Shown here piece after piece: positions 33,011 through 44,794 of a stretch of 50,605 nucleotides of DNA (position 1 is the first letter of the stretch; each line of letters begins with the position of its first letter). Position numbers and translations under genes: made by a program. This DNA is from Meridianimarinicoccus roseus (GTDB lineage Bacteria; Pseudomonadota; Alphaproteobacteria; Rhodobacterales; Rhodobacteraceae). The notes beneath the pieces are model-generated. The model searched no databases and was not told where the DNA came from. It worked only from the letters and a program-made list of their open reading frames with translations. Where the stretch lies: assembly GCF_003172915.1 (NCBI RefSeq), contig NZ_QGKU01000010.1:1-50605 (forward strand), in the 5' to 3' direction.

Positions 33011-33589
33011 GTGTCAGATACAGAAAAACCGTTGCTGATTAAGCGCTACGCCAGTCGGCGTCTCTACAACACCGAGACCAGCGACTACGTCACGCTGGAA
33101 GACATCGCCGGGTTCATTCGCAGCGGGCGCGAGGTCAAGATCGTCGATCTGAAGTCCGGGGACGACCTGACGCGCCAGTATCTTCTCCAGATCGTGGCCG
33201 AGCATGAAAGCAAGGGCGAAAGCGTGCTGCCGATCGCGGTGCTGACCGACCTTGTGCGCAGCTACACCACGCAGGCGCAGTCGGTGGTGCCGCAGTTCCT
33301 TGCCATGTCCTTCGACATGCTGCGCGACAGCCAGTCCAAGATGATGGAGAATTTTTCGACCCTTCCCACGCCGATGAACCCGATGTCGGGTATCGAAGCG
33401 ATGAAGCGCCAGCAGAAGGCGTTCCTTGCGACGATGGTGCCCGGTTGGCAGCCTGGCGACGACGGCGGCGAGGCGCCGGCCGCGGAGCCGCCCAAGGCGG
33501 AGTTGAGCGCGGACGAGAAGCAGGAACTGGATGACATCCGCGCGCAGCTTGCCGATCTGAAGGACAAGATGTCGAAGCTGGGCCAGTGA
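33011..33589 (+). CDS. phaR: PHB synthesis repressor PhaR
   Basis: PhaR binds both DNA and PHB, and represses phaP and its own gene until granules appear. The 192-residue protein has the N-terminal DNA-binding domain (LLIKRYASRRLYNTETSDYVTLEDIAGFIRSG, family PHB_acc_N). The PHB-binding region follows (VLPIAVLTDLVRSYTTQAQS and SFDMLRDSQSKMMENF). The C-terminal part is acidic then helical. The start is GTG at 33011, chosen for the GGAGG at 32999-33003 and because SDTEKPLLIKRY is the normal N-terminus. The 157-bp gap from phaP holds the terminator and several TGC triplets. Confidence 0.94.
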   Translation: MSDTEKPLLIKRYASRRLYNTETSDYVTLEDIAGFIRSGREVKIVDLKSGDDLTRQYLLQIVAEHESKGESVLPIAVLTDLVRSYTTQAQSVVPQFLAMSFDMLRDSQSKMMENFSTLPTPMNPMSGIEAMKRQQKAFLATMVPGWQPGDDGGEAPAAEPPKAELSADEKQELDDIRAQLADLKDKMSKLGQ

Positions 33590-33628: not shown

Positions 33629-34738
33629 ATGACCGACCCTCAGGGCCGTCTCACGCTCTGGATGATCGAGATCTTCGCGGCCATTGCCGAGACGCGGGCG
33701 ATCTCGGGCGCGGCGAAGCGGGTCGGGGCCAGCGCCTCGGCCGTCAGCCAGCAACTCAGCAAGCTGGAGGCGGGGGTCGGTGCGGTGCTGGTGGACCGCG
33801 CGGCCCGCCCTCTGCGTCTGACACCGGCGGGCGAGACGTTCCTGCGACGGGCGCAAACAATCTTGGACGAAGCGGCGCTGGCGCGGTCGGAACTGCTTGG
33901 CCCGGATCTGTCGCACCTGACGCGCGTGCGGCTTGGCATGATCGAGGATTTCGATGCGGACGTGACGCCGCGGCTGCTGACCGACATGGCGGGCGACCTG
34001 CAATCGTGCCAGTTCCTGCTGGAGACGGGAGCGAGCCACCGGCTGCTTTCCGGACTGGGCGAGCGGGCCCTAGACATGGTCGTCGCCGCCGACACCGCCG
34101 CTCCGGCCGAGGGGCTGGAGATGCATCCGCTGCTGGCCGAGCCGTTCATCGCGGTGGTGCCGCTGGAGCACGGTTCGCCGGTCTGTGCCGCGCCCGAGGC
34201 GCTGCGCGCGCTGCCCTTCATCCAGTATACCCAGCGTCACCACATGGGCCGCCAGATCGCGGCGCACCTGGCGCGGCAAAATTTCGTTCTCTCCTCGCGG
34301 TTCGAGATGGACAGCTACCACGCGATCCTATCAATGGTCGCGGCGGGAGCGGGCTGGTCGATCCTCACGCCGTTGGGGCTTCTGCGCGCACACCGGTTCG
34401 AGGCGCGGGTCGGCGTGATCGCGCTGCCAATGGCGCCGCTGGGCCGGGCGGTGTCGCTTTGGGCGCGGCGCGGCGCGCTTGGGGACATGCCGCAGCAGAC
34501 CGCCGCGCGGCTGCGCCCGATCCTCCATGAATTGATCGTGCGGCCCGCGCTGGCGCGGATGCCATGGCTGGCGCCCTCGCTGGTGGTGCTGGGCCCGGAC
34601 GGAGCGCCCGAAGGCCCACCGACCGTAGCCGGGGACGCTTCGCCGTCAGGTCGCGCGGCGGGTTCGGGGACAGAAGCCGGGACCGCCTGGTCCGGCGCCG
34701 CCGGACAGGGGCAGGGCCGTCGGCTTCAGGTACCGTAG
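33629..34738 (+). CDS. LysR-family transcriptional regulator with a long C-terminal tail
   Basis: The 369-residue protein has an N-terminal winged helix (WMIEIFAAIAETRAISGAAKRVGASASAVSQQLSKLEAGVGAVLVDRA) and a LysR substrate-binding domain to about residue 295. About 60 residues follow that are rich in glycine, alanine and proline, which is unusual, since LysR proteins usually have about 300. The tail overlaps the 3' end of the convergent DegT gene by 13 bp. Its target is unknown; the aminotransferase or the operon beyond it are candidates. The ATG follows a GGGCGGGGG site. Confidence 0.85.
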   Translation: MTDPQGRLTLWMIEIFAAIAETRAISGAAKRVGASASAVSQQLSKLEAGVGAVLVDRAARPLRLTPAGETFLRRAQTILDEAALARSELLGPDLSHLTRVRLGMIEDFDADVTPRLLTDMAGDLQSCQFLLETGASHRLLSGLGERALDMVVAADTAAPAEGLEMHPLLAEPFIAVVPLEHGSPVCAAPEALRALPFIQYTQRHHMGRQIAAHLARQNFVLSSRFEMDSYHAILSMVAAGAGWSILTPLGLLRAHRFEARVGVIALPMAPLGRAVSLWARRGALGDMPQQTAARLRPILHELIVRPALARMPWLAPSLVVLGPDGAPEGPPTVAGDASPSGRAAGSGTEAGTAWSGAAGQGQGRRLQVP

Positions 34739-35919
34739 GCGCGCGGCGCCATCACGCTGTCCACCGCCATCAGCAATGCACCGGCGATATAGTCAAGCTC
34801 GTCCCGGGTCAGGCGCGCCGGCAGGCGCACGTCGCAGGCCCGCATCAGCATCGCGCGGGTGCGCGGCAGGTCCGGCTGTTCGCCAAGGAACTGCCAGTTC
34901 CAGAAGGCGCGCGCGTTGTCGGTGCTCAGCCCGAAGACCTGCACCTTCACGCCGCGTGCCGCCGCGGCGTCCGTGAAGGCGTCGACATCCGCATCGGTCA
35001 TGCCCAGAAGGTTGAACTGGATCGAATCCGGCGCCCGGCGTTCCGGGGCCAGCGGCGCGGGCACCGACATGTGCGGAGAGGCGTTGAGTTGCGCTGCGAC
35101 ATGGTCGTGCCCCGCGCGCCCGTCGCGCACCCGCCGTGGCAGTTCGGCCAGTTGGGGCCGGATCACCGCCGCTGACAGGTTGTTCATCCGCGTGTTGTAA
35201 AGCGGCAGGCGATTCTGCCATGCCTCGAACTGGGCATTTACAGCCGGGTGCTTGCGCCAGTTGTGTTCATATGCGCCCGACATGATGACCGCGCGTGCGA
35301 TGATCGTGTCGTCGTCGGTCACGAGAATGCCGCCTTCGCCCGCGTTCAGCAGTTTGTAGGACTGGAACGAGAAACAGCCGATCCGCCCCAGCGTGCCGAT
35401 GTTGCGCCCGTGCCACGTGGTGCCGAGCGAGTGGGCCGCGTCCTCAACCACCGGCAGACCATGCGCCTCTGCAAGCCGAAGAATTGCGTCCATGTCCGAT
35501 GTATGGCCCCGCATGTGGCTGATCAGCACCGCGTCCGCGCCCGCAAGCTTCGCTTCGAAATCGGCCATGTCGATGCGGTAGGTTTCATCCACCTCGACCA
35601 GCACCGGCACGCAATCGGCGTGCACCACCGCCGAGGGCACCGCACCGAAGGTGAAGGCCGGGATCAGCACCTTCGCCCCACGCGGCAGGTCCAGCGCCTT
35701 CAGCGACAGGAACAGCGCCGCCGAACAGGACGCTACCGCGAGCGCGTATCGGCTGCCCAGCATCTGAGCGAACTCCGCTTCCAGCAGCGTGACCGGCGCG
35801 TTTTCGCTGGTGTAGCGGAACAGGTCGCCCGTACCCAGCAGGCGGTCGATCTCGGCGCGGGCGGCCTCGGGGATGGGCTCTGCATCATAAACGTTGGGGG
35901 CGGTCGCCGTCGGAGTCAT
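34726..35919 (-). CDS. DegT/DnrJ/EryC1/StrS-family PLP aminotransferase
   Basis: These enzymes transfer amino groups to keto-sugars or cyclic ketones, often for surface glycans or secondary products. The 397-residue protein has the family features: SCSAALFLSLKAL, VLIPAFTFGAVPSAV, VVEDAAHSLGTTW, and the PLP lysine K189 in FSFQSYKLLNAGEGG. MNNLSAAVIRPQL follows. No sugar nucleotide genes surround it, so its substrate is unclear. The ATG at 35919 gives a normal N-terminus. An upstream in-frame extension to 35985 overlaps an inverted repeat and was rejected. The 173-bp upstream gap holds that repeat. Confidence 0.87.
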   Translation of the reverse strand: MTPTATAPNVYDAEPIPEAARAEIDRLLGTGDLFRYTSENAPVTLLEAEFAQMLGSRYALAVASCSAALFLSLKALDLPRGAKVLIPAFTFGAVPSAVVHADCVPVLVEVDETYRIDMADFEAKLAGADAVLISHMRGHTSDMDAILRLAEAHGLPVVEDAAHSLGTTWHGRNIGTLGRIGCFSFQSYKLLNAGEGGILVTDDDTIIARAVIMSGAYEHNWRKHPAVNAQFEAWQNRLPLYNTRMNNLSAAVIRPQLAELPRRVRDGRAGHDHVAAQLNASPHMSVPAPLAPERRAPDSIQFNLLGMTDADVDAFTDAAAARGVKVQVFGLSTDNARAFWNWQFLGEQPDLPRTRAMLMRACDVRLPARLTRDELDYIAGALLMAVDSVMAPRAYGT

Positions 35920-36092: not shown

Positions 36093-37397
36093 TCAGAAAC
36101 CCAGCCGGTCGCGCAGGGCGAACCACGTCATCGCCAGCACCAGAAGCGGGTTGCGCAGGGCCGGGCCACCCGGAAAGGCCGGAGCGGGCAGGCGGGACAT
36201 CAACGCGAAGCGTGCGGCGTCGCCGTCCACCGCCTCGGCGATCAGCCGCCCCGCGAGCGTGGCCAGCGCGACGCCGTGCCCGGAATAGCCCGACGCGGTG
36301 TAAAGCCCCGGTTCGGGCTGCGCGAAATGCGGCAGCCGCGAGCGGGTGATCGCCAGCGTGCCACCCCAGGCATGGGCGATGCCGATACCCGCCAGCTGCG
36401 GATAGAGCCGTTCCATAAGCGGGCGCACCATCGCGGCGATATCCGCCGGAAAACGGTAGCCGTAGGTTTCGCCACCGCCGAACACCAGCCGGTCGTCGGC
36501 GCTGCGCCGCCAGTAGTTCACCACGAACTTGTCGTCGGCGGCGGCGATGCCGCGCGGCAGCACGCCCGGGAAGGCATGAAGCGGGTCGGTGGCAACGATG
36601 AAGTTGTTGATCGGCATCACCCGGGCGGCGGTCGGGCCGTGCAGGCGCCCGAGATATCCGTTGCAGGCCAGCACCAGCGTGTCCGCCGTAACCCGGCCCT
36701 GCGCCGTTGTGACCACGTGGTGCGCGCCGTCGCGGGCAAGGCTGGTCGCCTCGCTGCATTCATGCAGCCGGGCGCCCGCCTCGCGCGCGGCACCTGCCAG
36801 CCCCAGCACGAAGGCCAGCGGATCGAGATGCCCTGCACCCCAGTCGATCACGCCGCCCGAAAAGCCGCGCGCCCCGGTCTCGCGCGCGGCGTCGTCGCGG
36901 TCCAGAATCTCTGTCGCGGTGTATCCGTAGTGGCGCGCCAGATGATCCGCCAGCGCGGCCTCGTGCGCGGCGGCCTGCGGGCTCCGGGCGAGGTGGGCCA
37001 CGCCATCGCGCCAGTCGCAGGCGATTGCGTGATCGGCGATCAGCGCGCGCACCTCCGCCTTGGCATCTTCTGCCAGTTGCCAAAGGAGGCGCGCATCGTC
37101 CGGACCGGCCAACCGTTCCAGATCGCGCTGGTCCATCCGCTGGCCGGAGCCGACCTGCCCGCCATTACGTCCCGACGCGCCGAACCCGAGGCGCTGCGCC
37201 TCGAGAAGGCACACGTCGTAGCCGCGCCGTGCCAGATGCAACGCCGCCGAAAGGCCGGTGTAGCCGCCGCCGATCACGCAGACATCGGCCCGCAACGCAC
37301 CCGTCAGCGGCGCGGACGGCGCGGGCAGAGGGCGGGCCGCGGCATAGAGACTGGGCGGGTAGCGCCCGGGCCGGTCGTTGGCGTGAAGAAGGTTCAC
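36093..37397 (-). CDS. puuB: FAD-dependent amine oxidase, gamma-glutamylputrescine oxidase-like
   Basis: PuuB oxidises gamma-glutamylputrescine to gamma-glutamyl-aminobutyraldehyde with release of ammonia and hydrogen peroxide. The 434-residue protein has the DAO-family Rossmann motif VCVIGGGYTGLSAALHLARRG (around 39-60), LGFGASGRNGGQVGSGQR, and the C-terminal FAD segment ASGYSGHGVALATLAGRLIAEA. WGGTLAITRSRLPHF also fits. It is the last gene of the run and lies 10 bp after puuA. The exact amine is not fixed by sequence; other gamma-glutamyl amines are possible. Confidence 0.85.
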   Translation of the reverse strand: MNLLHANDRPGRYPPSLYAAARPLPAPSAPLTGALRADVCVIGGGYTGLSAALHLARRGYDVCLLEAQRLGFGASGRNGGQVGSGQRMDQRDLERLAGPDDARLLWQLAEDAKAEVRALIADHAIACDWRDGVAHLARSPQAAAHEAALADHLARHYGYTATEILDRDDAARETGARGFSGGVIDWGAGHLDPLAFVLGLAGAAREAGARLHECSEATSLARDGAHHVVTTAQGRVTADTLVLACNGYLGRLHGPTAARVMPINNFIVATDPLHAFPGVLPRGIAAADDKFVVNYWRRSADDRLVFGGGETYGYRFPADIAAMVRPLMERLYPQLAGIGIAHAWGGTLAITRSRLPHFAQPEPGLYTASGYSGHGVALATLAGRLIAEAVDGDAARFALMSRLPAPAFPGGPALRNPLLVLAMTWFALRDRLGF

Positions 37398-37407
37398 CGG
37401 CCGGACC

Positions 37408-38766
37408 TCAGACGTTCAGCAGCAGATGCTCCCGCTCCCAGGGCGAGATGACTTGCAGGAATTCGTTGTATTCCTCGCGCTTGACGATCTCGTAGACCCG
37501 GCTGAAATCGACGCCCAGCAGCTGGCGCAGCCCGTCCGCCTCCTCGAAAAGCTCGAGCGCGGAGAACAGGTCATGGGGAATGTCGCTTTCCCCGGCATAG
37601 GCGTCGCCTGCCATCATCGGGCGCGGCTGGGCGCCCGCGCGCAGGCCCAGAAGACCGCAGGCCAGCGAGGCCGCGATGCCGAGATAGGGGTTACAATCCA
37701 TCCCGGCGAGGCGGTTCTCCACCCGACGCGCTCCTGGTGTCGAGATCGGCACGCGGATGCCGGTGGTGCGGTTGTCGCGGCCCCATTCGAGGTTGATCGG
37801 CGCGGCATGGTCGCGGACGTAGCGCCGATAGCTGTTCACATAAGGCGCAAGGATCGCGATGGCGCTGGGAAGATGGGTCTGTAGCCCCGCGATGAAGTGG
37901 TGGAAGGCCGGGGTTTCGGTGCCGTCATCGGTCGAGAAGATGTTGCGACCGGTGGACTTGTCGATCACCGAGTGGTGGATGTGCATGGCCGAACCCGGCT
38001 CGTCCGCGATCGGCTTGGCCATGAAGGTGGCGAAGCAGTCGTGGCGCAGCGCGGCCTCGCGGATCAGGCGCTTGAAGAAGAACACCTCGTCGGCGAGCTT
38101 GACCGGGTCGCCGTGGCGCAGGTTGATCTCCAGCTGGCCCGCGCCGCCTTCCTGCGTGATGCCGTCGATCTCGAAGCCCTGCGCTTCGGCGAAATCGTAG
38201 ATGTCGTCGATCACCGGGCCGTATTCGTCCACCGCGGACATGGAATAGGCCTGCCGTGCGGCGGCGGGTCGGCCCGACCGGCCCAGCATGGGCTCGATCG
38301 AGCGGGCCGGGTCGAGGTTGCGGGCGACAAGGTAGAATTCCATCTCCGGGGCGACGACCGGGCGCAGGCCCTGCGCCTCGTACTGGGCGAGGACCCGCTT
38401 GAGCACATTGCGCGGGGCAAATGGCACGGGCGTGCCGTCGGTGCGCTGCGCGTCGTGTATCACCTGCAGTGTCCAGTCGCCGGTCCAAGGCGCGGCGGTG
38501 GCGGTTTCCATGTCCGGGATCAGGATCATGTCCGGTTCGGTGAAGCCTTGCGGACCCGCTGCCTCGCCCCAGCCGCCCGCGATGGTCTGGAAGAAGATCG
38601 ACTCTGGAAGGTAGAACTTGGCCTGCCGTGCGAACTTGCCCGCCGGTACTGCCTTGCCGCGGGCGATGCCCGGCAGGTCCGATATGATGCATTCGACCTC
38701 GTCCAGTCTCCGCCCGTCGAGAAAGCGGCGCGCGGCGTCGGGAATGCGGGTCAGCCAGTCAGCCAT
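37408..38766 (-). CDS. puuA: Glutamine-synthetase-like ligase, gamma-glutamylputrescine synthetase type
   Basis: PuuA joins glutamate to an amine using ATP. The 452-residue protein has the glutamine-synthetase fold: a short beta-grasp part, then the metal-binding PEMEFYLVAR, GGAGQLEINLRHGD, MHIHHSV, the arginine segment NRTTGIRVP and the terminal NPYLGIAASLACGL. The N-terminal DLPGIARGKAVP resembles PuuA rather than true GlnA, and no adenylylation tyrosine segment is evident. The ATG at 38766 lies inside the end of the amidotransferase gene, an 8-bp overlap, so the two are coupled. Confidence 0.87.
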   Translation of the reverse strand: MADWLTRIPDAARRFLDGRRLDEVECIISDLPGIARGKAVPAGKFARQAKFYLPESIFFQTIAGGWGEAAGPQGFTEPDMILIPDMETATAAPWTGDWTLQVIHDAQRTDGTPVPFAPRNVLKRVLAQYEAQGLRPVVAPEMEFYLVARNLDPARSIEPMLGRSGRPAAARQAYSMSAVDEYGPVIDDIYDFAEAQGFEIDGITQEGGAGQLEINLRHGDPVKLADEVFFFKRLIREAALRHDCFATFMAKPIADEPGSAMHIHHSVIDKSTGRNIFSTDDGTETPAFHHFIAGLQTHLPSAIAILAPYVNSYRRYVRDHAAPINLEWGRDNRTTGIRVPISTPGARRVENRLAGMDCNPYLGIAASLACGLLGLRAGAQPRPMMAGDAYAGESDIPHDLFSALELFEEADGLRQLLGVDFSRVYEIVKREEYNEFLQVISPWEREHLLLNV

Positions 38767-39523
38767 TGGACACCTGTCCTTGCCGGGGTGCGGGGGCGGC
38801 ATCGCGGGTGGCCGGGGCTGCCGGGCGCGACGGGTGGCCGAGTGCCGCTTCGAAGAAATCCGCGATCATCGCCATCATCCGCCCGTCGTCCAACGGGGCG
38901 GCCAGATCCGCGCGGGCGGGGGCGATCAACGCCTGCGGGAAGCTCGCGTCGCGAGCCTTCAGCTCCACGAAATCGGCGCTGATGCGCGGCCCGAACTCGG
39001 GATGCGGCTGCACGCTCAGCCCCCAGTTGCCATAGCGCAGCCCGGCAATCGGACAGAAGGCGTTGCGCGCGATCACCTCTGCGCCTTGCGGCGCGCGGAC
39101 CACCTGGTCCTGGTGGATCGCCGTCACCGCCATCTCGCCCGCGTCTCCCATGTCATAGACCTGCCGCCCGAAACCCCAACCCCGCTTGGACTTCTCGACC
39201 CGCCCGCCAAGCGCCTGCGCCATAACCTGGTGACCGAAGCATATGCCCGCCATTGGCCGCCCCGCCGCGCGCGCGGCCCTGATGAACGCTTCCAGCGGCG
39301 CGATGAAGGGCAACGGATCGTAGCAGCCGTGGCGCGATCCGGTCAGCAGCCAAGCGTCCGCGTCCGCGGACCCGCCGGGCGGGAACTCCATCCCGTGCAC
39401 GCACCAGCTTGCGAAAGTCCGGCCGGGCGCGTCCAGCAGCCGTGCGAAGAGTTGCGGATAGGTGCCGTGGCGCTCCGCGATCTCCACCGGGGTGGGACCG
39501 CATTCCAGGATGCCGATGTGCAT
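38759..39523 (-). CDS. Class I glutamine amidotransferase domain protein
   Basis: The 254-residue protein has the GATase-1 triad: C95 in GICFGHQVMAQALGG, with H174 and E176 in VQPHPEFGP. ADAWLLTGSRHGCYD and GWGFGRQVYD are like the free-standing GMP-synthase-type amidotransferases. In the operon it probably cleaves a gamma-glutamyl bond, as PuuD does at the end of the Puu route, but PuuD belongs to a different peptidase C26 branch, so this is inference. The start at 39523 gives MHIGILECGP. It overlaps puuA by 8 bp. Confidence 0.82.
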   Translation of the reverse strand: MHIGILECGPTPVEIAERHGTYPQLFARLLDAPGRTFASWCVHGMEFPPGGSADADAWLLTGSRHGCYDPLPFIAPLEAFIRAARAAGRPMAGICFGHQVMAQALGGRVEKSKRGWGFGRQVYDMGDAGEMAVTAIHQDQVVRAPQGAEVIARNAFCPIAGLRYGNWGLSVQPHPEFGPRISADFVELKARDASFPQALIAPARADLAAPLDDGRMMAMIADFFEAALGHPSRPAAPATRDAAPAPRQGQVSNG

Positions 39524-39598
39524 GAAAGCCTCGTTTTGCAATGGGCGCAGCATATTCCTGCGCCGCCGCAAGGTCCAGCGCCGCCGCAGCGTCCGCCG

Positions 39599-40912
39599 TC
39601 AGACGCGGTCGTGCAGTTGCAGCGCCACCAGTTCCGGGTCGCGGCTGCCCATCAGCCGCTGTTCCTGCCGCTTCACCTTGACCAGCATCTCGACCAGCAG
39701 GCGTGGAAAGATCCGGGCCATCCGCGGCGACGTCTCGAATCGGGTGATCGCCTCGTCCCAGTCGGTCGGCACCTTCAGGATCGGCTTGCTGTAGGCGTTG
39801 CCGATGATCGGCTCGGGTGGGGACAACTCGTCCTCCACTCCCATCAGCGCGGCACCGAGGATCGCGGCCATCACGAGATAGGGGTTGGTATCGCCCCCCG
39901 CCATCCGGTGTTCGAAGCGCCGCGCCGATGGATCGCCGCCCGGAATGCGCAGCGCCGTCGTGCGGTTCTCGTAGCCCCAGGATGCGCCGGTCGGAGCATG
40001 GCTGCTCGGCGCGATACGTTCATAGCTTCCGGCATGCGGCGCGAAGACCAGCATCGCGCCCGGCATCCCCGACAGGCATCCCGCAACCACCTGACGCAGC
40101 AGCCCGCTGCCCGACATCACCCCGTTGTCGAACAGGTTCTGCCCGTGGGCGTCCTTCACCGACACGTGCACATGCAGCCCGTTGCCCGGATCGTCGGGAA
40201 ACGGCTTGGCCATGAAGGTCGCCGCCATGCCATGCCGCTTGGCCAGACCCTTGACCAGCGACTTGAGCAGCCAGGTATCGTCGGCGATGCGCATCGCGGG
40301 GCCGTGGTTCAGGTTCACCTCGAACTGGCCGATCCCGCCTTCGGAAACCGCCGCCTGCACCGAGATGCCCATCGCCTCCGCCCCGGCATAGAGTGCATCG
40401 AAGAATGCGGCGAAATCGTCCAGCGCATCGACCGAGTTGATGTCGCCCGAATGCAGCGCCATCCCTGTGACCGGGTCGATCGCCTGCGCGATGCTCCGCC
40501 CACTTATGTCGAGCAGCGTGAACTCCAGTTCCGTTGCCGCGACCACTTTCCAGCCGCGCCGTGTGTAGCGCGCCAGCACCCGGGCCAGCGCGTGGCGCGG
40601 GCAGGCGTCGAACGGTCGCCCGTCGTCGGTGTACATCCACATCGGCAGCAGTGTCGCCTGCGGATCGAGCCAGGGCATCGGCACCGGACCCCGTTCGGTC
40701 AGGCGCAACTGCCCGTCCGCGTCGCCAGACGCATGGACCAACGGGCTGCCCTCCACGTCGTTGCCCCAGATGTCGAGCGACAGCGCCGACAGTGGCATCC
40801 GCTGGCCGGCGAATTCCAGTTTCGCCGCGTCCGAGGCGGGCAGGCGCTTGCCCCGCATCACCCCGTTGAGATCCGCGCTGGCGGTGCGCAGGCTTGCCGT
40901 CTGTATGTCCAT
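39599..40912 (-). CDS. Second glutamine-synthetase-like ligase
   Basis: The 437-residue protein is a divergent paralogue of the puuA product. It keeps the core sites: ATELEFTLLD, GGIGQFEVNLNHGP, GLHVHVSVKDAHG, ENRTTALRIPGGD and TNPYLVMAAILGAAL. Its N-terminal region (ASADLNGVMRGKRLP) is typical of the gamma-glutamyl-amine and amide ligases. It starts 5 bp after the permease gene and lies 75 bp before the amidotransferase gene. Its acceptor amine probably differs from that of the other ligase. A frame continuing upstream to 41782 overlaps the permease and is not part of the gene. Confidence 0.85.
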   Translation of the reverse strand: MDIQTASLRTASADLNGVMRGKRLPASDAAKLEFAGQRMPLSALSLDIWGNDVEGSPLVHASGDADGQLRLTERGPVPMPWLDPQATLLPMWMYTDDGRPFDACPRHALARVLARYTRRGWKVVAATELEFTLLDISGRSIAQAIDPVTGMALHSGDINSVDALDDFAAFFDALYAGAEAMGISVQAAVSEGGIGQFEVNLNHGPAMRIADDTWLLKSLVKGLAKRHGMAATFMAKPFPDDPGNGLHVHVSVKDAHGQNLFDNGVMSGSGLLRQVVAGCLSGMPGAMLVFAPHAGSYERIAPSSHAPTGASWGYENRTTALRIPGGDPSARRFEHRMAGGDTNPYLVMAAILGAALMGVEDELSPPEPIIGNAYSKPILKVPTDWDEAITRFETSPRMARIFPRLLVEMLVKVKRQEQRLMGSRDPELVALQLHDRV

Positions 40913-40917
40913 CGTCC

Positions 40918-41757
40918 TCAGCGCACCAATTGCGGCCTGATCTTCAGCGACGGACGCGCGTCGCGCGCCAGGTGCCGGTTCAGCCGGGCGTTGATCCGCC
41001 CGAACACCACAATCACGATGACCGTCAGAACGATGAAATAGCCGGCGAAGATGGGATAGGGAATGAACGGGTTGAAGGTGCGGTCCGCGAGGTAGCTGGC
41101 GTAATAGAGCGCGTCGCCCTGCTGGCGCCAGGCAGGGAAGCTGGAGAAGAACACCAGCGCGGTGGCGTGGAACAGGAAGATCGCCTCGTTCGTGTAGCCC
41201 GGCCAGGCAAGGCGCAACATGGTCGGAAAGGTGATGCGGCGGAATTTGGTCCAGCCCGCCATGCCGTAGGCGTCGGCCGCTTCGCTTTCGCCGCGCGGGA
41301 TCGACCGCAGCGCGCCGTGGAAGATTTCCGCCGCATAGGCCGAGGTGTTCAGGAACAGCACCAGCAGCGCCCCGGCCCAGGCGCGCGTCACCCACGAGGT
41401 TTCGATGGTCAGGGTCACAATGCCCAACGGCAGCGAAACTCCGGTGCGGGGCAGAAGCGTCAGCGCCTCGTAGGCGAGGAAGAACTGGATGAAGAGCGGC
41501 GAGCCGCGAAACAGGAAGATGAACCATTCGCAAGGCTTGCGCACCAGCGCCCGGCTGGACGCCTTGCCCATCGCCAGAGCCACCGAAAGAAAGAAACCGA
41601 AGGCCAGCGCGAGCACGCCGAAATAGACGTTCCAGATCATGCCGGAGCCGATCAGGGTGAATTGCTCGCACAGCGTAATGTCGGAGCGCGGCAGCAGCCG
41701 TTCGCCGATCCCGAGCGAGCGCAGCCCGTAGTCCTGGATCGTCTGCCAGCAGCTCAT
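40918..41757 (-). CDS. Polar amino acid ABC transporter, permease 2
   Basis: The 279-residue protein has five to six membrane segments and the inner-membrane permease loop of the HisMQ/GlnP family (AYAAEIFHGALRSIPRGESEAADAYGMAGWTKFRRITFP). FRGSPLFIQFFLAYEAL is the other family hallmark. It pairs with the permease encoded just upstream; the two genes overlap by four bases. It acts in amino-acid or amine import with the ATPase and binding protein of this operon. Confidence 0.9.
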   Translation of the reverse strand: MSCWQTIQDYGLRSLGIGERLLPRSDITLCEQFTLIGSGMIWNVYFGVLALAFGFFLSVALAMGKASSRALVRKPCEWFIFLFRGSPLFIQFFLAYEALTLLPRTGVSLPLGIVTLTIETSWVTRAWAGALLVLFLNTSAYAAEIFHGALRSIPRGESEAADAYGMAGWTKFRRITFPTMLRLAWPGYTNEAIFLFHATALVFFSSFPAWRQQGDALYYASYLADRTFNPFIPYPIFAGYFIVLTVIVIVVFGRINARLNRHLARDARPSLKIRPQLVR

Positions 41758-42635
41758 GCGGCGGCCTTGCGCAGCGCATCACCCGCTGCGGTGGCCTGAC
41801 CGCGCGACAGCCGACGCGCCAGTCGGCCGAATGCGATCTCCGACACCTGCGTCAGCGCAAGGTAGAACACCAGCAGGAACAGGAAGTAATAAAGCCGCCA
41901 ATCGGGATGGGGGTAGGTGAAGGTGCTGGTCTTGGACCCGCCCAGTTCGCGCGCCCAGTAGACGATGTCTTCTACCCCCAGCAGGAAAAGCAGCGGCGTC
42001 GCCTTCACAAGGATCTGCCACAGGTTCGACAGGCCGGGCAGGGCGAAGATCCACATCTGCGGCACAAGGATGCGCCAGAACGCCTGCCTGCGGGTCATCC
42101 CGTAGGCTTCGGCGGTTTCCATCTGCGCGCGCGGCACCGCGGTCATCGCGCCGTGGATCACGTTGGCGGCGAAGGCGCCGAACACCACTGCGAAGGCCAG
42201 CACGGCGGTTCCGAAGCCGTAGCCCTCGTGCACCCATTGTGGGGCATTGGACAGCGGCAGCTTTGCGATGTCGCAGACCACGAAATCGTTGCCCTGCCGC
42301 ACCGGAAGCTCCCAGTCGGGGCATCGGACCTTGTGGCGCAGCCATTCCAGCCCCTGATCGAGCGCGATCGGCACGAAGAGGAAAAAGGCGATGTCCGGGA
42401 TGCCGCGCACCATCGATGTATATCCCCGCCCGAGCCAGCGCAGCGGTGCGATCTGTGACCGGGTCGCCATCGCGCCGAGAAACCCGAACAACAGCGCGAC
42501 GGGCGCTGTGATCGCCAACAGCAGAAGCACCGTCCCGAACGAGGCGTAGAAGGCCATGTGCTTGCCCGTGGTCAGGTAGCACGCCATCCACGGCAGGTCG
42601 TCCAGCAGGGCAGGGTCGGTACAGAAGGAGAACAC
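41754..42635 (-). CDS. Polar amino acid ABC transporter, permease 1
   Basis: The 293-residue protein is the partner of the other permease. It shows MVRGIPDIAFFLFVPIAL and the loop AANVIHGAMTAVPRAQMETAEAYGMTRRQAFWRILVP, both typical of the HisMQ family. A periplasmic insertion (DQGLEWLRHKVRCPDWELPVRQ) between the first segments is longer than usual. The stop overlaps the next permease by four bases. The gene follows the binding-protein gene after a 73-bp gap with a strong hairpin. Confidence 0.9.
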   Translation of the reverse strand: MFSFCTDPALLDDLPWMACYLTTGKHMAFYASFGTVLLLLAITAPVALLFGFLGAMATRSQIAPLRWLGRGYTSMVRGIPDIAFFLFVPIALDQGLEWLRHKVRCPDWELPVRQGNDFVVCDIAKLPLSNAPQWVHEGYGFGTAVLAFAVVFGAFAANVIHGAMTAVPRAQMETAEAYGMTRRQAFWRILVPQMWIFALPGLSNLWQILVKATPLLFLLGVEDIVYWARELGGSKTSTFTYPHPDWRLYYFLFLLVFYLALTQVSEIAFGRLARRLSRGQATAAGDALRKAAA

Positions 42636-42671
42636 GGGTCAGAAGGTCCGATCTGGCGAAGGCGCGGCAGG

Positions 42672-42697
42672 GCCGGGCACCCGTTTCAGGGCGCCCG
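42672..42697 (-). terminator. Intercistronic hairpin after the binding-protein gene
   Basis: CCGGGCACCC and GGGCGCCCGG form a 10-bp stem with one G-U-type mismatch around a six-base loop. It lies 12 bp past the binding-protein stop and 37 bp before the permease start. Such stems in ABC operons usually protect the abundant binding-protein mRNA and lower expression of the membrane parts. There is no T-run. Confidence 0.55.
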
Positions 42698-42708
42698 GCG
42701 GAACGGGA

Positions 42709-43428
42709 TCAGAACGGCGCGCTTTCGGGCAGCCACTTCGCGATGAGCTCGTTCAGGGTGCCGTCGTCCTTCATGGACTGGATCGCGGCATTGAAGGTTT
42801 CCTTCAGTTCGGCGTCGCTTTCGCGGATGCCCATGCCGATGCCACCGCCCAGAAGAATGTCGTCGCCGACATACATCAGGTCCGCATCCTCGGTCACGAT
42901 GGGTTCAAGGAACGCCTTGTCGGCGATCACCGCGTCCACCTCGCCGTTGCGCACGGCGGCGACGGTTTCGTCGGGGCTGGCAAATTCGACCAGCGTCGCG
43001 CCGATCTCGGCGACGTAGCCCGCCTGAATGGTGCCGGTCTGCGCCGCGATCACCGCGCTTGCGAGATCGAGGTCCGGCGTCATGCCCACGACGGAGGACG
43101 GATCGGGCTGGGTGTAGGGTTGGGTGAAGTCGATCACCTCGTCGCGTTCCGGCGTGATCGACATGCCTGCGATGATCGTGTCGTAGTTGCCCGACACGAG
43201 GTTCGGAATGATGCTGTCCCAGTCGTTGGTGACCCACTCGCAGGTCAGTTCGGCCCGCGCGCACAACTCGTCGCCCAACTCGCGCTCGAAGCCGTCGATC
43301 TCGCCATTGTCGTTGATGAAGTTGTACGGAGGATACGCCCCCTCGGTGCCCATGCGGACCACGTCCTGCGCGAGTGCAGCGCCCGTTCCGAAGGCCAGAA
43401 GGGCCGTCGCAAGTGTCAGTGTTTTCAT
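42709..43428 (-). CDS. Polar amino acid ABC transporter, periplasmic binding protein
   Basis: The 239-residue protein starts with a signal peptide (MKTLTLATALLAFGTGAALA, cut before QD). It is a type 3 binding protein of the amino-acid family: RMGTEGAYPPYNFINDNGEIDGFE, then LVSGNYDTIIAGMSITPERDEVIDFTQPY. An acidic ligand-facing surface is suggested by TQPDPSS and AVIADKAFLEP. It shows no basic amine site of the PotF type, which belongs to another family. With the two ligases and the oxidase in the operon, the ligand may be an amine or amino acid. Confidence 0.9.
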   Translation of the reverse strand: MKTLTLATALLAFGTGAALAQDVVRMGTEGAYPPYNFINDNGEIDGFERELGDELCARAELTCEWVTNDWDSIIPNLVSGNYDTIIAGMSITPERDEVIDFTQPYTQPDPSSVVGMTPDLDLASAVIAAQTGTIQAGYVAEIGATLVEFASPDETVAAVRNGEVDAVIADKAFLEPIVTEDADLMYVGDDILLGGGIGMGIRESDAELKETFNAAIQSMKDDGTLNELIAKWLPESAPF

Positions 43429-43461
43429 TGGTTTCCCCTTGTTGGTGATGGTGGCCCCGGT

Positions 43462-44232
43462 TCAAGCCGGGGCGGAATGTGACAGGAACTGCTGCAGCCG
43501 GGCGGATTTCGGCGCGCCGAACAGCGCGTCCGGCGGGCCTTCTTCCTCGATCCGGCCCTGATGCAGGAAGATCACGTGGCTCGACATGTCAGCGGCCATG
43601 CGCATGTCGTGGGTCACGATCATCATGGTGCGCCCCTCGGCGGCGAGATCCTTGATCACACGCACGACCTCCTGCTCAAGTTCGGGATCGAGCGCTGAGG
43701 TCGGTTCGTCGAAAAGCAGCGCCTGCGGTTCCATGCAAAGCGCCCGCGCGATGGCGGCACGCTGCTGCTGCCCGCCCGAAAGCTGCGCTGGATAGACGTC
43801 GCACTTGTCGCCGATCCCGACCTTGTCGAGCAGCCCTCGCGCGCGCGCCTCGACCGCGTCGCGGTCCTGCCGCAGGACGGTGACCGGCGCTTCCATGACG
43901 TTCTCGAGGATCGACATATGTGCCCACAGGTTGAACTGCTGAAACACCATCGACAGGTTGGTGCGCACGCGCAGCACCTGTCGTGCGTCGCCCGGCCGCC
44001 GGTCGTGACCGCTGCCCTTCCAGCGGATCGGCTCCCCGTTGAACAGGATCTCGCCCTGTTGGCTGTCCTCAAGCAGGTTGCAACACCGCAGCAGCGTGGA
44101 TTTTCCCGACCCGGACGAGCCGATCAGCGATACCACATGCCCCTTGTCCGCCGTGACCGACACGCCCTTGAGCACTTCGAGGGACCCATAGGATTTGTGG
44201 AGGTCGCGGATTTCGATGACAGGTGCGGGCAC
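43462..44232 (-). CDS. Polar amino acid ABC transporter, ATP-binding protein
   Basis: The 256-residue protein has all ATPase motifs: Walker A GSSGSGKST, Q-loop FQQFNLW, signature LSGGQQQRAAIARAL, Walker B LLFDEPTSALD and the switch VTHDM. It belongs to the HisP/GlnQ group. The start is GTG at 44232, chosen because GAGGAG lies five bases before it and because the preceding in-frame residues have no family match. It heads the eight-gene operon, with a 124-bp upstream gap that holds the likely promoter. Confidence 0.92.
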   Translation of the reverse strand: MPAPVIEIRDLHKSYGSLEVLKGVSVTADKGHVVSLIGSSGSGKSTLLRCCNLLEDSQQGEILFNGEPIRWKGSGHDRRPGDARQVLRVRTNLSMVFQQFNLWAHMSILENVMEAPVTVLRQDRDAVEARARGLLDKVGIGDKCDVYPAQLSGGQQQRAAIARALCMEPQALLFDEPTSALDPELEQEVVRVIKDLAAEGRTMMIVTHDMRMAADMSSHVIFLHQGRIEEEGPPDALFGAPKSARLQQFLSHSAPA

Positions 44233-44356: not shown

Positions 44357-44794
44357 TCAACGCTCTTCCACGGTGCGCCGCGCGATGTTGCTGTCGCGGT
44401 CGGTGATGCCCAAGAGGTTCGCCACCATCCGCATCAGGCTGTCCTCTTCGTCGTCGCGCTGCCCGTCGGCCAGCACAACCTGCCACAGTGCGGCGATCAC
44501 GGCGAGCCGGTCGTCATAGGGCACCGCGTCCTTGATCGCGCGGGTGAAGCGCACGGTGTCGGGCGCCTCGGTCTCCAGCGTCTCGGCGTCGCGTCGCAGC
44601 TTGCCCGCCTCGAATGGGCTGAGCGCATAGCGCGCCGCGAGGATCCGGTCGATGCGGTCGATCTCGATCTGGGCGTAATCGTCGTCCGACCGTGCGATGC
44701 GCACAAGCAGCGCGGCCAGCGCAAGGCGGGCATCGGTGTCGGGAAGCGGGGCGGGGTCTGGGGCCATCAGGCCCTGAAGCAGCTTCTGGAACAT
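44357..44794 (-). CDS. TerB-like (tellurite-resistance family) protein
   Basis: The 145-residue protein is all-helical and fits the TerB-like family: LALAALLVRIARSDDDYAQIEIDRIDRIL, then DRLAVIAALWQVVLADGQRDDEEDSLMRMVANLLGI. The two acidic helix-loop segments resemble metal-binding sites of TerB. No other ter genes are present, and the role is unknown. The start at 44794 is preferred over longer in-frame options because it lacks the arginine-rich extension. It diverges from the DJ-1-like gene across 184 bp. Confidence 0.85.
   Translation of the reverse strand: MFQKLLQGLMAPDPAPLPDTDARLALAALLVRIARSDDDYAQIEIDRIDRILAARYALSPFEAGKLRRDAETLETEAPDTVRFTRAIKDAVPYDDRLAVIAALWQVVLADGQRDDEEDSLMRMVANLLGITDRDSNIARRTVEER

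Follow-up and report, generated by a model that had tools for sequence, protein, structure and literature searches.

The window analysed here is a stretch of 50,605 nt from Meridianimarinicoccus roseus (contig NZ_QGKU01000010.1, assembly GCF_003172915.1); its minus strand carries, at positions 36093-44232, a predicted amine gamma-glutamylation operon. The eight open reading frames (ORFs) of this operon are named, in the direction of reading, HISP, SBP, HISQ, HISM, LIGB, GAT, LIGA and OXI. An earlier, sequence-only reading had described them as a full HisPMQ-type ATP-binding cassette (ABC) importer, two ligases resembling glutamine synthetase (GS), a class I amidotransferase and a PuuB-like oxidase, joined by overlaps or short gaps. 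Both the families and the close packing are borne out by the ORF list and by Pfam and NCBIfam searches; the NCBIfam matches of the eight proteins all score under the curated cut-offs.

The importer genes come first. HISP (43462..44232, GTG start) is the ATP-binding subunit of a HisP-type amino-acid importer, scoring 330.5 bits with the NCBIfam HisP model PRK10619 (cut-off 466). SBP (42709..43428), matched by Pfam SBP_bac_3, is a periplasmic binding protein of the cationic-amino-acid type. HISQ (41754..42635) and HISM (40918..41757) are permeases, both matched by Pfam BPD_transp_1; the best NCBIfam models are ArtQ, then HisQ, for the former and HisM for the latter. The two permease genes overlap by 4 nt, and 5 nt separate HISM from LIGB (39599..40912, 437 aa), a predicted gamma-glutamyl amine ligase of the PuuA lineage. 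GAT (38759..39523, 254 aa), a class I amidotransferase and probable gamma-glutamyl hydrolase, overlaps by 8 nt with LIGA (37408..38766), a second predicted gamma-glutamyl amine ligase, of 452 aa from an inner ATG, whose ORF is open from 38802. After a gap of 10 nt follows OXI (36093..37397, GTG start), a PuuB-like FAD amine oxidase or dehydrogenase. For LIGB, GAT and LIGA, the likely starts (40912, 39523 and 38766) fall inside the listed ORFs. Downstream, on the same strand, lies DEGT (34726..35919), a pyridoxal phosphate (PLP) aminotransferase of the DegT/DnrJ/EryC1/StrS type (Pfam PF01041, 226 bits), treated below as a ninth member of the set.

Two predicted amine ligases and their partner enzymes

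LIGA and LIGB are each 37% identical to E. coli PuuA and 33% identical to each other. Their residues were read from an alignment to E. coli GlnA, for which we assume the residue roles of the Salmonella enzyme. Both ligases keep E129, E131, E212, E220, H269, E357, R339, R344, R355, G265, R321 and R359; N264 is the only metal, ATP or glutamate residue, among those checked, that is absent from both, and it is absent from PuuA too. The ammonium-site residues D50, S53, Y179 and E327, expected in a true glutamine synthetase, are absent in both, as in PuuA. Because the catalytic residues are kept and the ammonium site is lost, both look like active amine ligases, that is, GS-like enzymes with intact ATP, metal and glutamate sites; a degenerate second ligase was rejected on account of the retained residues. 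The residues that replace the ammonium site are not the same in LIGA and LIGB: since the amine sites differ, the two probably take different amines.

A tree of 113 rows places the LIGB type with PuuA (SH-aLRT 95) and gives the LIGA type a clade of its own, of 73 rows (SH-aLRT 99). On this tree, of a quick kind and with long branches flagged, PuuA included, LIGA and LIGB are placed as two old lineages. For either ligase, the nearest rows outside both operon clades come from the same two stretches, both with Pot-type importer genes. One, from Maritalea (L245), contains OXI, a class III aminotransferase, LIGA, an agmatinase, an aldehyde dehydrogenase (38% identical to PuuC), LIGB, PuuB (52%) and PotFGH-type genes; by NCBIfam, the agmatinase and potA (TIGR01187) are above cut-off, while PotF and PotG are best models but below it. 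The other (L114, G448 C5:1-16000) carries LIGA, OXI, LIGB, PuuB-like and GAT homologues beside Pot-type genes. It is a second copy of the enzyme set, in a genome judged from identical places and scores to be that of another stretch, L184, whose importer-linked operon is devoid of LIGB and GAT.

A similar context was found around LIGA homologues in 40 stretches (L082-L121), 39 from other families and one, L114, from the same family. At least one polyamine-type neighbour is present in 31 of the 40 (E 1e-10): an OXI/PuuB homologue in 19, a class III aminotransferase in 17, a PotF homologue in 11, an agmatinase homologue in 2. A binding protein of the operon kind is found in none of them at E 1e-10. 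Since polyamine clusters with Pot importers harbour relatives of both ligases, the preferred reading of the enzymes is a predicted module for diamine or polyamine gamma-glutamylation, of the Puu/Pau kind. One point tells against this: the neighbour counts have no random-stretch control, and both DAO-type oxidases and class III aminotransferases are widespread. The claim that amines are gamma-glutamylated by two distinct ligases is thus supported, at the level of prediction, by residues, phylogeny and context alike.

GAT is matched by Pfam GATase (52.3 bits) and, more weakly, by Peptidase_C26 (27.9 bits); its best NCBIfam model, PRK05665, scores 118.3 bits (cut-off 309), and its best solved relative is a plant gamma-glutamyl peptidase 1 (9k7i, E 1.1e-11). 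The Cys-His-Glu triad (C95, H174, E176) is present in 84 of 84 rows. The amidotransferase fold and the triad expected of a gamma-glutamyl hydrolase are present; against this assignment stand the PRK05665 score, under cut-off, and the persistence of GAT without ligases in one stretch (L134, see below). A blastp comparison of GAT with PuuD gave zero matches at E 1e-3, and the Pfam match to the PuuD family is weak. OXI is matched by Pfam DAO and is 39% identical to E. coli PuuB over 425 aa, as expected for a FAD oxidase of the PuuB/PauB type, and its motif residues (G43, G45, G48, G76, R77, N78) are found in 70 of 70 rows. K189 of DEGT, the presumed PLP lysine, is present in 58 of 58. DEGT relatives outside the family are 36-41% identical, with one at 69% in genome G335; they share no common context, and naming a substrate by this way failed. 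Four of them (L310, L311, L313, L314) lie near glycine-betaine-type or NMT1-type importer genes.

The binding protein and its likely cargo

SBP is 72% identical to PDB entry 3i6v, described there as a His/Glu/Gln/Arg/opine family-binding protein from Silicibacter (Ruegeria) pomeroyi in complex with a ligand, reportedly lysine. NocT/OccJ opine binders and arginine or lysine/arginine/ornithine (LAO)-type binders come next, some GlnPQ glutamine binders lower. In an alignment of 41 rows (the window's own and 40 from the 80-stretch SBP set described below, with and without adjacent enzymes), E29, Y32, W70, R95 and D170 are invariant in all 41. We take R95, D170, E29, Y32 and W70 to correspond to R77, D161, D11, Y14 and F52 of the LAO protein. 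With its family-3 fold, an Arg and an Asp predicted to hold the alpha-amino acid and an acidic/aromatic side-chain pocket, SBP has the features of a binding protein of the LAO/HisJ type. An AlphaFold model built from the 41 rows (mean local confidence, pLDDT, 85.9; predicted template-modelling score, pTM, 0.74) aligns with 3i6v at a template-modelling (TM) score of 0.62, and has 3i6v, opine and Lys/Arg/Orn binders as best fold matches; a single-sequence model was discarded (pLDDT 38.8). The source organism of 3I6V is given as A. variabilis in PMC8786288, and as Silicibacter pomeroyi in the PDB description.

For R. pomeroyi, PMC10130141 names PotFGHI (SPO3466-3469), another system, as the verified importer of cadaverine, putrescine and spermidine. 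Given this, the type of SBP and its invariant residues, a cationic alpha-amino acid is the most likely cargo of the importer.

Linkage of importer and enzymes among relatives

Of 198 genomes sampled from the Rhodobacteraceae, 190 have a LIGA homologue at E 1e-60, a threshold at which LIGB-type genes count too; this makes the module close to family-wide. At 1e-90, the figure is 90 of 385 genomes sampled from the class. Gene content was followed in two sets: a family set of 20 stretches, fetched around LIGA homologues from Rhodobacteraceae, and an SBP set, consisting of the best 80 of 575 SBP relatives. Presence was counted by tblastn at identity thresholds of 45% (LIGB), 35% (GAT), 55% (LIGA), 42% (OXI) and 60% (DEGT). 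Gene calls in the retrieved sequences come from a simple script using ORFs and GC3, which missed some genes; spacings rest on starts set by script.

In the family set, GAT and LIGA are present in 20 of 20 stretches, the four importer genes in 19, OXI in 18, LIGB and DEGT in 17 each. The SBP set features HISP in 79 of 80, GAT in 52, LIGA in 48, LIGB in 45, OXI in 41 and DEGT in 34. A GAT to LIGA spacing between -60 and 150 nt is kept in 20 of 20 family stretches and in all 47 stretches of the SBP set having both genes on one strand; such tight spacing is not due to chance. The gap between HISM and LIGB falls in the same range in 33 of 45 SBP-set stretches and in 12 of 16 family-set stretches. 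DEGT adjoins 9 of the 11 GAT-LIGA pairs that stand away from the importer; on this ground, and for its presence in 17 of 20 family stretches, it is counted as ninth member.

The linkage is not universal: 23 of the 80 SBP-set stretches, some of which end a few kb downstream, contain the four importer genes and zero enzyme genes, and one stretch (L071) has the enzymes without the importer. Both observations speak against a single system of importer and enzymes. Twelve of the 23 lone-importer genomes were checked, and LIGB (E 1e-60) and GAT (E 1e-20) matches were found in all 12. The LIGB-GAT-LIGA-OXI-DEGT block is whole at another place in 9; in 2, GAT-LIGA is present without OXI and DEGT, and LIGB lies at a separate site next to Pot-type genes and a PuuB homologue; Maritalea, the last, has another layout.

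The lone importers and the nine detached blocks are what would be expected if importer and block were merely two neighbouring units, the former for general uptake of cationic amino acids, the latter serving polyamines imported by Pot systems; M. roseus itself has elsewhere a PotA/PhnT-type importer together with an agmatinase and an aldehyde dehydrogenase. We hold this possible, if rather unlikely, in view of the short HISM-LIGB gap in most linked stretches and of the flanking genes. In the window, the operon is immediately preceded by a TerB-like gene (44357-44794, minus strand); on the other side, past the LysR-type gene described below, lies a gene for a PHB regulator (33011-33589). TerB/PhnD-type genes accompany 19 of 20 linked family stretches and PHB genes 16 of 20. 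Of the 23 lone importers, 17 still have TerB/PhnD-type genes nearby; of the 9 detached whole blocks, 6 retain PHB genes and all 9 are without a TerB/PhnD-type gene. The TerB/PhnD side stays with importers and the PHB side with blocks, as would follow from the break of a single locus between the two; we read the linkage as probably ancestral and later broken.

Gene loss bears also on the relation between the ligases. The sequence-only reading had offered two-step glutamylation of one diamine as an option, the ligases acting in sequence on a diamine or polyamine. Their presence in one operon, with differing replacements at the ammonium site, suits this idea; the genomes with a LIGB-less operon stretch do not. 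Among 11 such genomes, a close LIGB (51%) lies elsewhere in just one, G597. In nine others the homologues reach no more than 37% identity, and the last gave no match at E 1e-30. Roughly four of the nine (G593, G599, G049, G598) carry a further homologue, at 34-37%, that might replace LIGB. Double glutamylation is therefore not favoured and seems highly improbable; an obligatory pairing of the ligases was rejected, LIGB being gone in several genomes. Some stretches keep LIGA and are devoid of OXI.

Beyond DEGT and convergent with it lies LYSR (33629..34738, plus strand), a LysR-type gene (Pfam HTH_1 and LysR_substrate) and a candidate regulator only. Its best NCBIfam model is PtrR, of putrescine utilisation, at 88.2 bits (cut-off 400), and homologues occur in 7 of 20 family stretches. 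A promoter scan of the locus gave no promoter-like site, and terminator-like sites are no commoner than in shuffled sequences.

Proposed pathway and known systems

From the importer type and the polyamine-type enzyme module, the operon probably handles diamines derived from an imported cationic amino acid: a Puu/Pau-type gamma-glutamylation pathway of Rhodobacteraceae, led by a lysine/arginine/ornithine-type importer, to which we assign a probability of about 0.6. The substrates, the order of the steps, the decarboxylation and the part of DEGT are proposed here from gene families, catalytic residues, loss of the ammonium site, gene linkage and the polyamine context of ligase relatives. The importer would take up a cationic alpha-amino acid, most likely lysine, which a decarboxylase encoded elsewhere may turn into cadaverine, or into putrescine if the amino acid is ornithine or arginine. 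LIGB and LIGA would then couple the gamma-carboxyl of glutamate to the amine, using ATP; OXI would convert the free amine end into an aldehyde, which an aldehyde dehydrogenase encoded elsewhere may oxidise to the acid. GAT would finally cleave the gamma-glutamyl bond, giving glutamate and an omega-amino acid, and DEGT may transaminate some intermediate.

Candidates for the missing steps are found in the M. roseus genome. Two genes belong to the Orn/Arg-decarboxylase family, one of which may be a diaminopimelate decarboxylase. E. coli PuuC has eight matches among its genes at E 1e-60; the one highest in identity (42%) has betaine-aldehyde and aminobutyraldehyde dehydrogenase as best models, all under cut-off. 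This aldehyde dehydrogenase, 58% identical to the enzyme of the Maritalea cluster, lies on contig C57 together with an agmatinase (above cut-off) and the PotA/PhnT-type importer.

Further points weigh against the proposed pathway. The operon contains neither an aldehyde dehydrogenase nor a decarboxylase gene; the decarboxylase family matches also in 13 of 14 control genomes, and lends weak support. The Puu/Pau scheme is not known to include a DegT enzyme. Rhodovulum adriaticum (L134:9126-14571) keeps an intact importer, GAT and DEGT but is devoid of the oxidase and of both ligases, and the sole GS-like match of its genome at E 1e-10 is 29% identical. As GAT and DEGT are kept there though the ligases are lost, they may have a role apart from them. 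Another stretch (L174) features importer and GAT, with GS-like matches of 29-34% only; a third (L197) has importer, GAT and DEGT, the latter cut by the contig end, in a small genome without any GS-like match, and says little.

The same persistence with the importer would make GAT and DEGT the core of a different system, in which a lysine-like cationic amino acid is itself handled as gamma-glutamyl amide throughout the family, with the ligases as exchangeable entry points for different amines; we regard this as improbable. A related scheme is a direct route from lysine or ornithine: the side-chain amine is gamma-glutamylated, so that cyclisation is blocked, OXI and/or DEGT remove the alpha-amino group, and GAT frees glutamate. 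Such a route would explain an importer with alpha-amino-acid signature directly ahead of the ligases, an operon without decarboxylase gene and an aminotransferase in the set; the best NCBIfam model of OXI, moreover, is the L-pipecolate oxidase AmaA (216 bits, cut-off 600). We nevertheless give it little credit, as relatives of both ligases belong to polyamine clusters with Pot genes and agmatinase, and OXI resembles PuuB.

The diamine pathway favoured here is of a known kind. The sequence-only reading had set the operon apart from the classical Puu route, with its one ligase, permease of another kind, PuuC and PuuD of another family. This contrast stands relative to E. coli (puuPADRCBE): PuuA-like ligases and a PuuB-like oxidase are shared, but the E. 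coli cluster has one ligase, the PuuP permease and PuuC, the M. roseus operon two ligases and an ABC importer, and no blastp partner of PuuC or PuuD is found among the window proteins compared. It does not stand relative to Pseudomonas: P. aeruginosa is described as having seven pauA, four pauB, one pauC and two pauD genes (PMC9397018), PauD2 is assigned to the class I glutamine amidotransferases (PMC8274714), and in P. putida one cluster joins two gamma-glutamylation genes with an aminotransferase (PMC10606097). The Pau/Spu systems, as described there, thus have multiple ligases of the PuuA type, oxidases of the PuuB type, a PauD2 of class I, and clusters with an ABC importer and an aminotransferase. 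These compare with M. roseus by descriptions, not by sequences; the Pseudomonas importer is of polyamine type, that of M. roseus of HisPMQ/LAO type, and the aminotransferase is SpuC in the former, of DegT type in the latter. SpuC is a class III aminotransferase. Lu et al. (2002) reportedly studied spuABCDEFGH-spuI, and Mou et al. (2010) are said to have dealt with spermidine in R. pomeroyi. With the LAO/HisJ-HisQMP and NocT/OccJ importers, the M. roseus importer shares subunits and binding-protein fold; unlike them, it is directly followed by a gamma-glutamylation block.

The gamma-glutamyl-ethanolamine pathway (GlnA4 type) also pairs a GS-like ligase with oxidation enzymes, according to PMC9397018, and uses an iron-type alcohol dehydrogenase. 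In M. roseus, another contig (L246, C23:33500-52500) holds a GS-like ligase, a TRAP-type importer, an aldehyde dehydrogenase, an iron-type alcohol dehydrogenase and a MauG-like gene, a set that looks gamma-glutamyl-ethanolamine-type by its gene families. As the genome has this separate set, ethanolamine is less likely as substrate of the operon, and was set aside.

The sequence-only reading would have fallen had both ligase substrates already been assigned in close relatives; in the literature searched, most subscription papers being outside its reach, no substrate assignment for the operon was found, and no R. pomeroyi locus tags or fitness data naming it turned up.

The operon is a conserved variant, tied to a lysine-type importer, of amine gamma-glutamylation, a kind of system already known. 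Members of the mostly marine Rhodobacteraceae use much dissolved organic nitrogen in seawater. In Ruegeria pomeroyi, as of 2023, substrates had been verified by experiment for 18 of 126 importers of organic carbon (PMC10130141). Identifying the substrates of the importer and of the two ligases would fill a gap in the understanding of lysine/diamine and nitrogen use by the Rhodobacteraceae.

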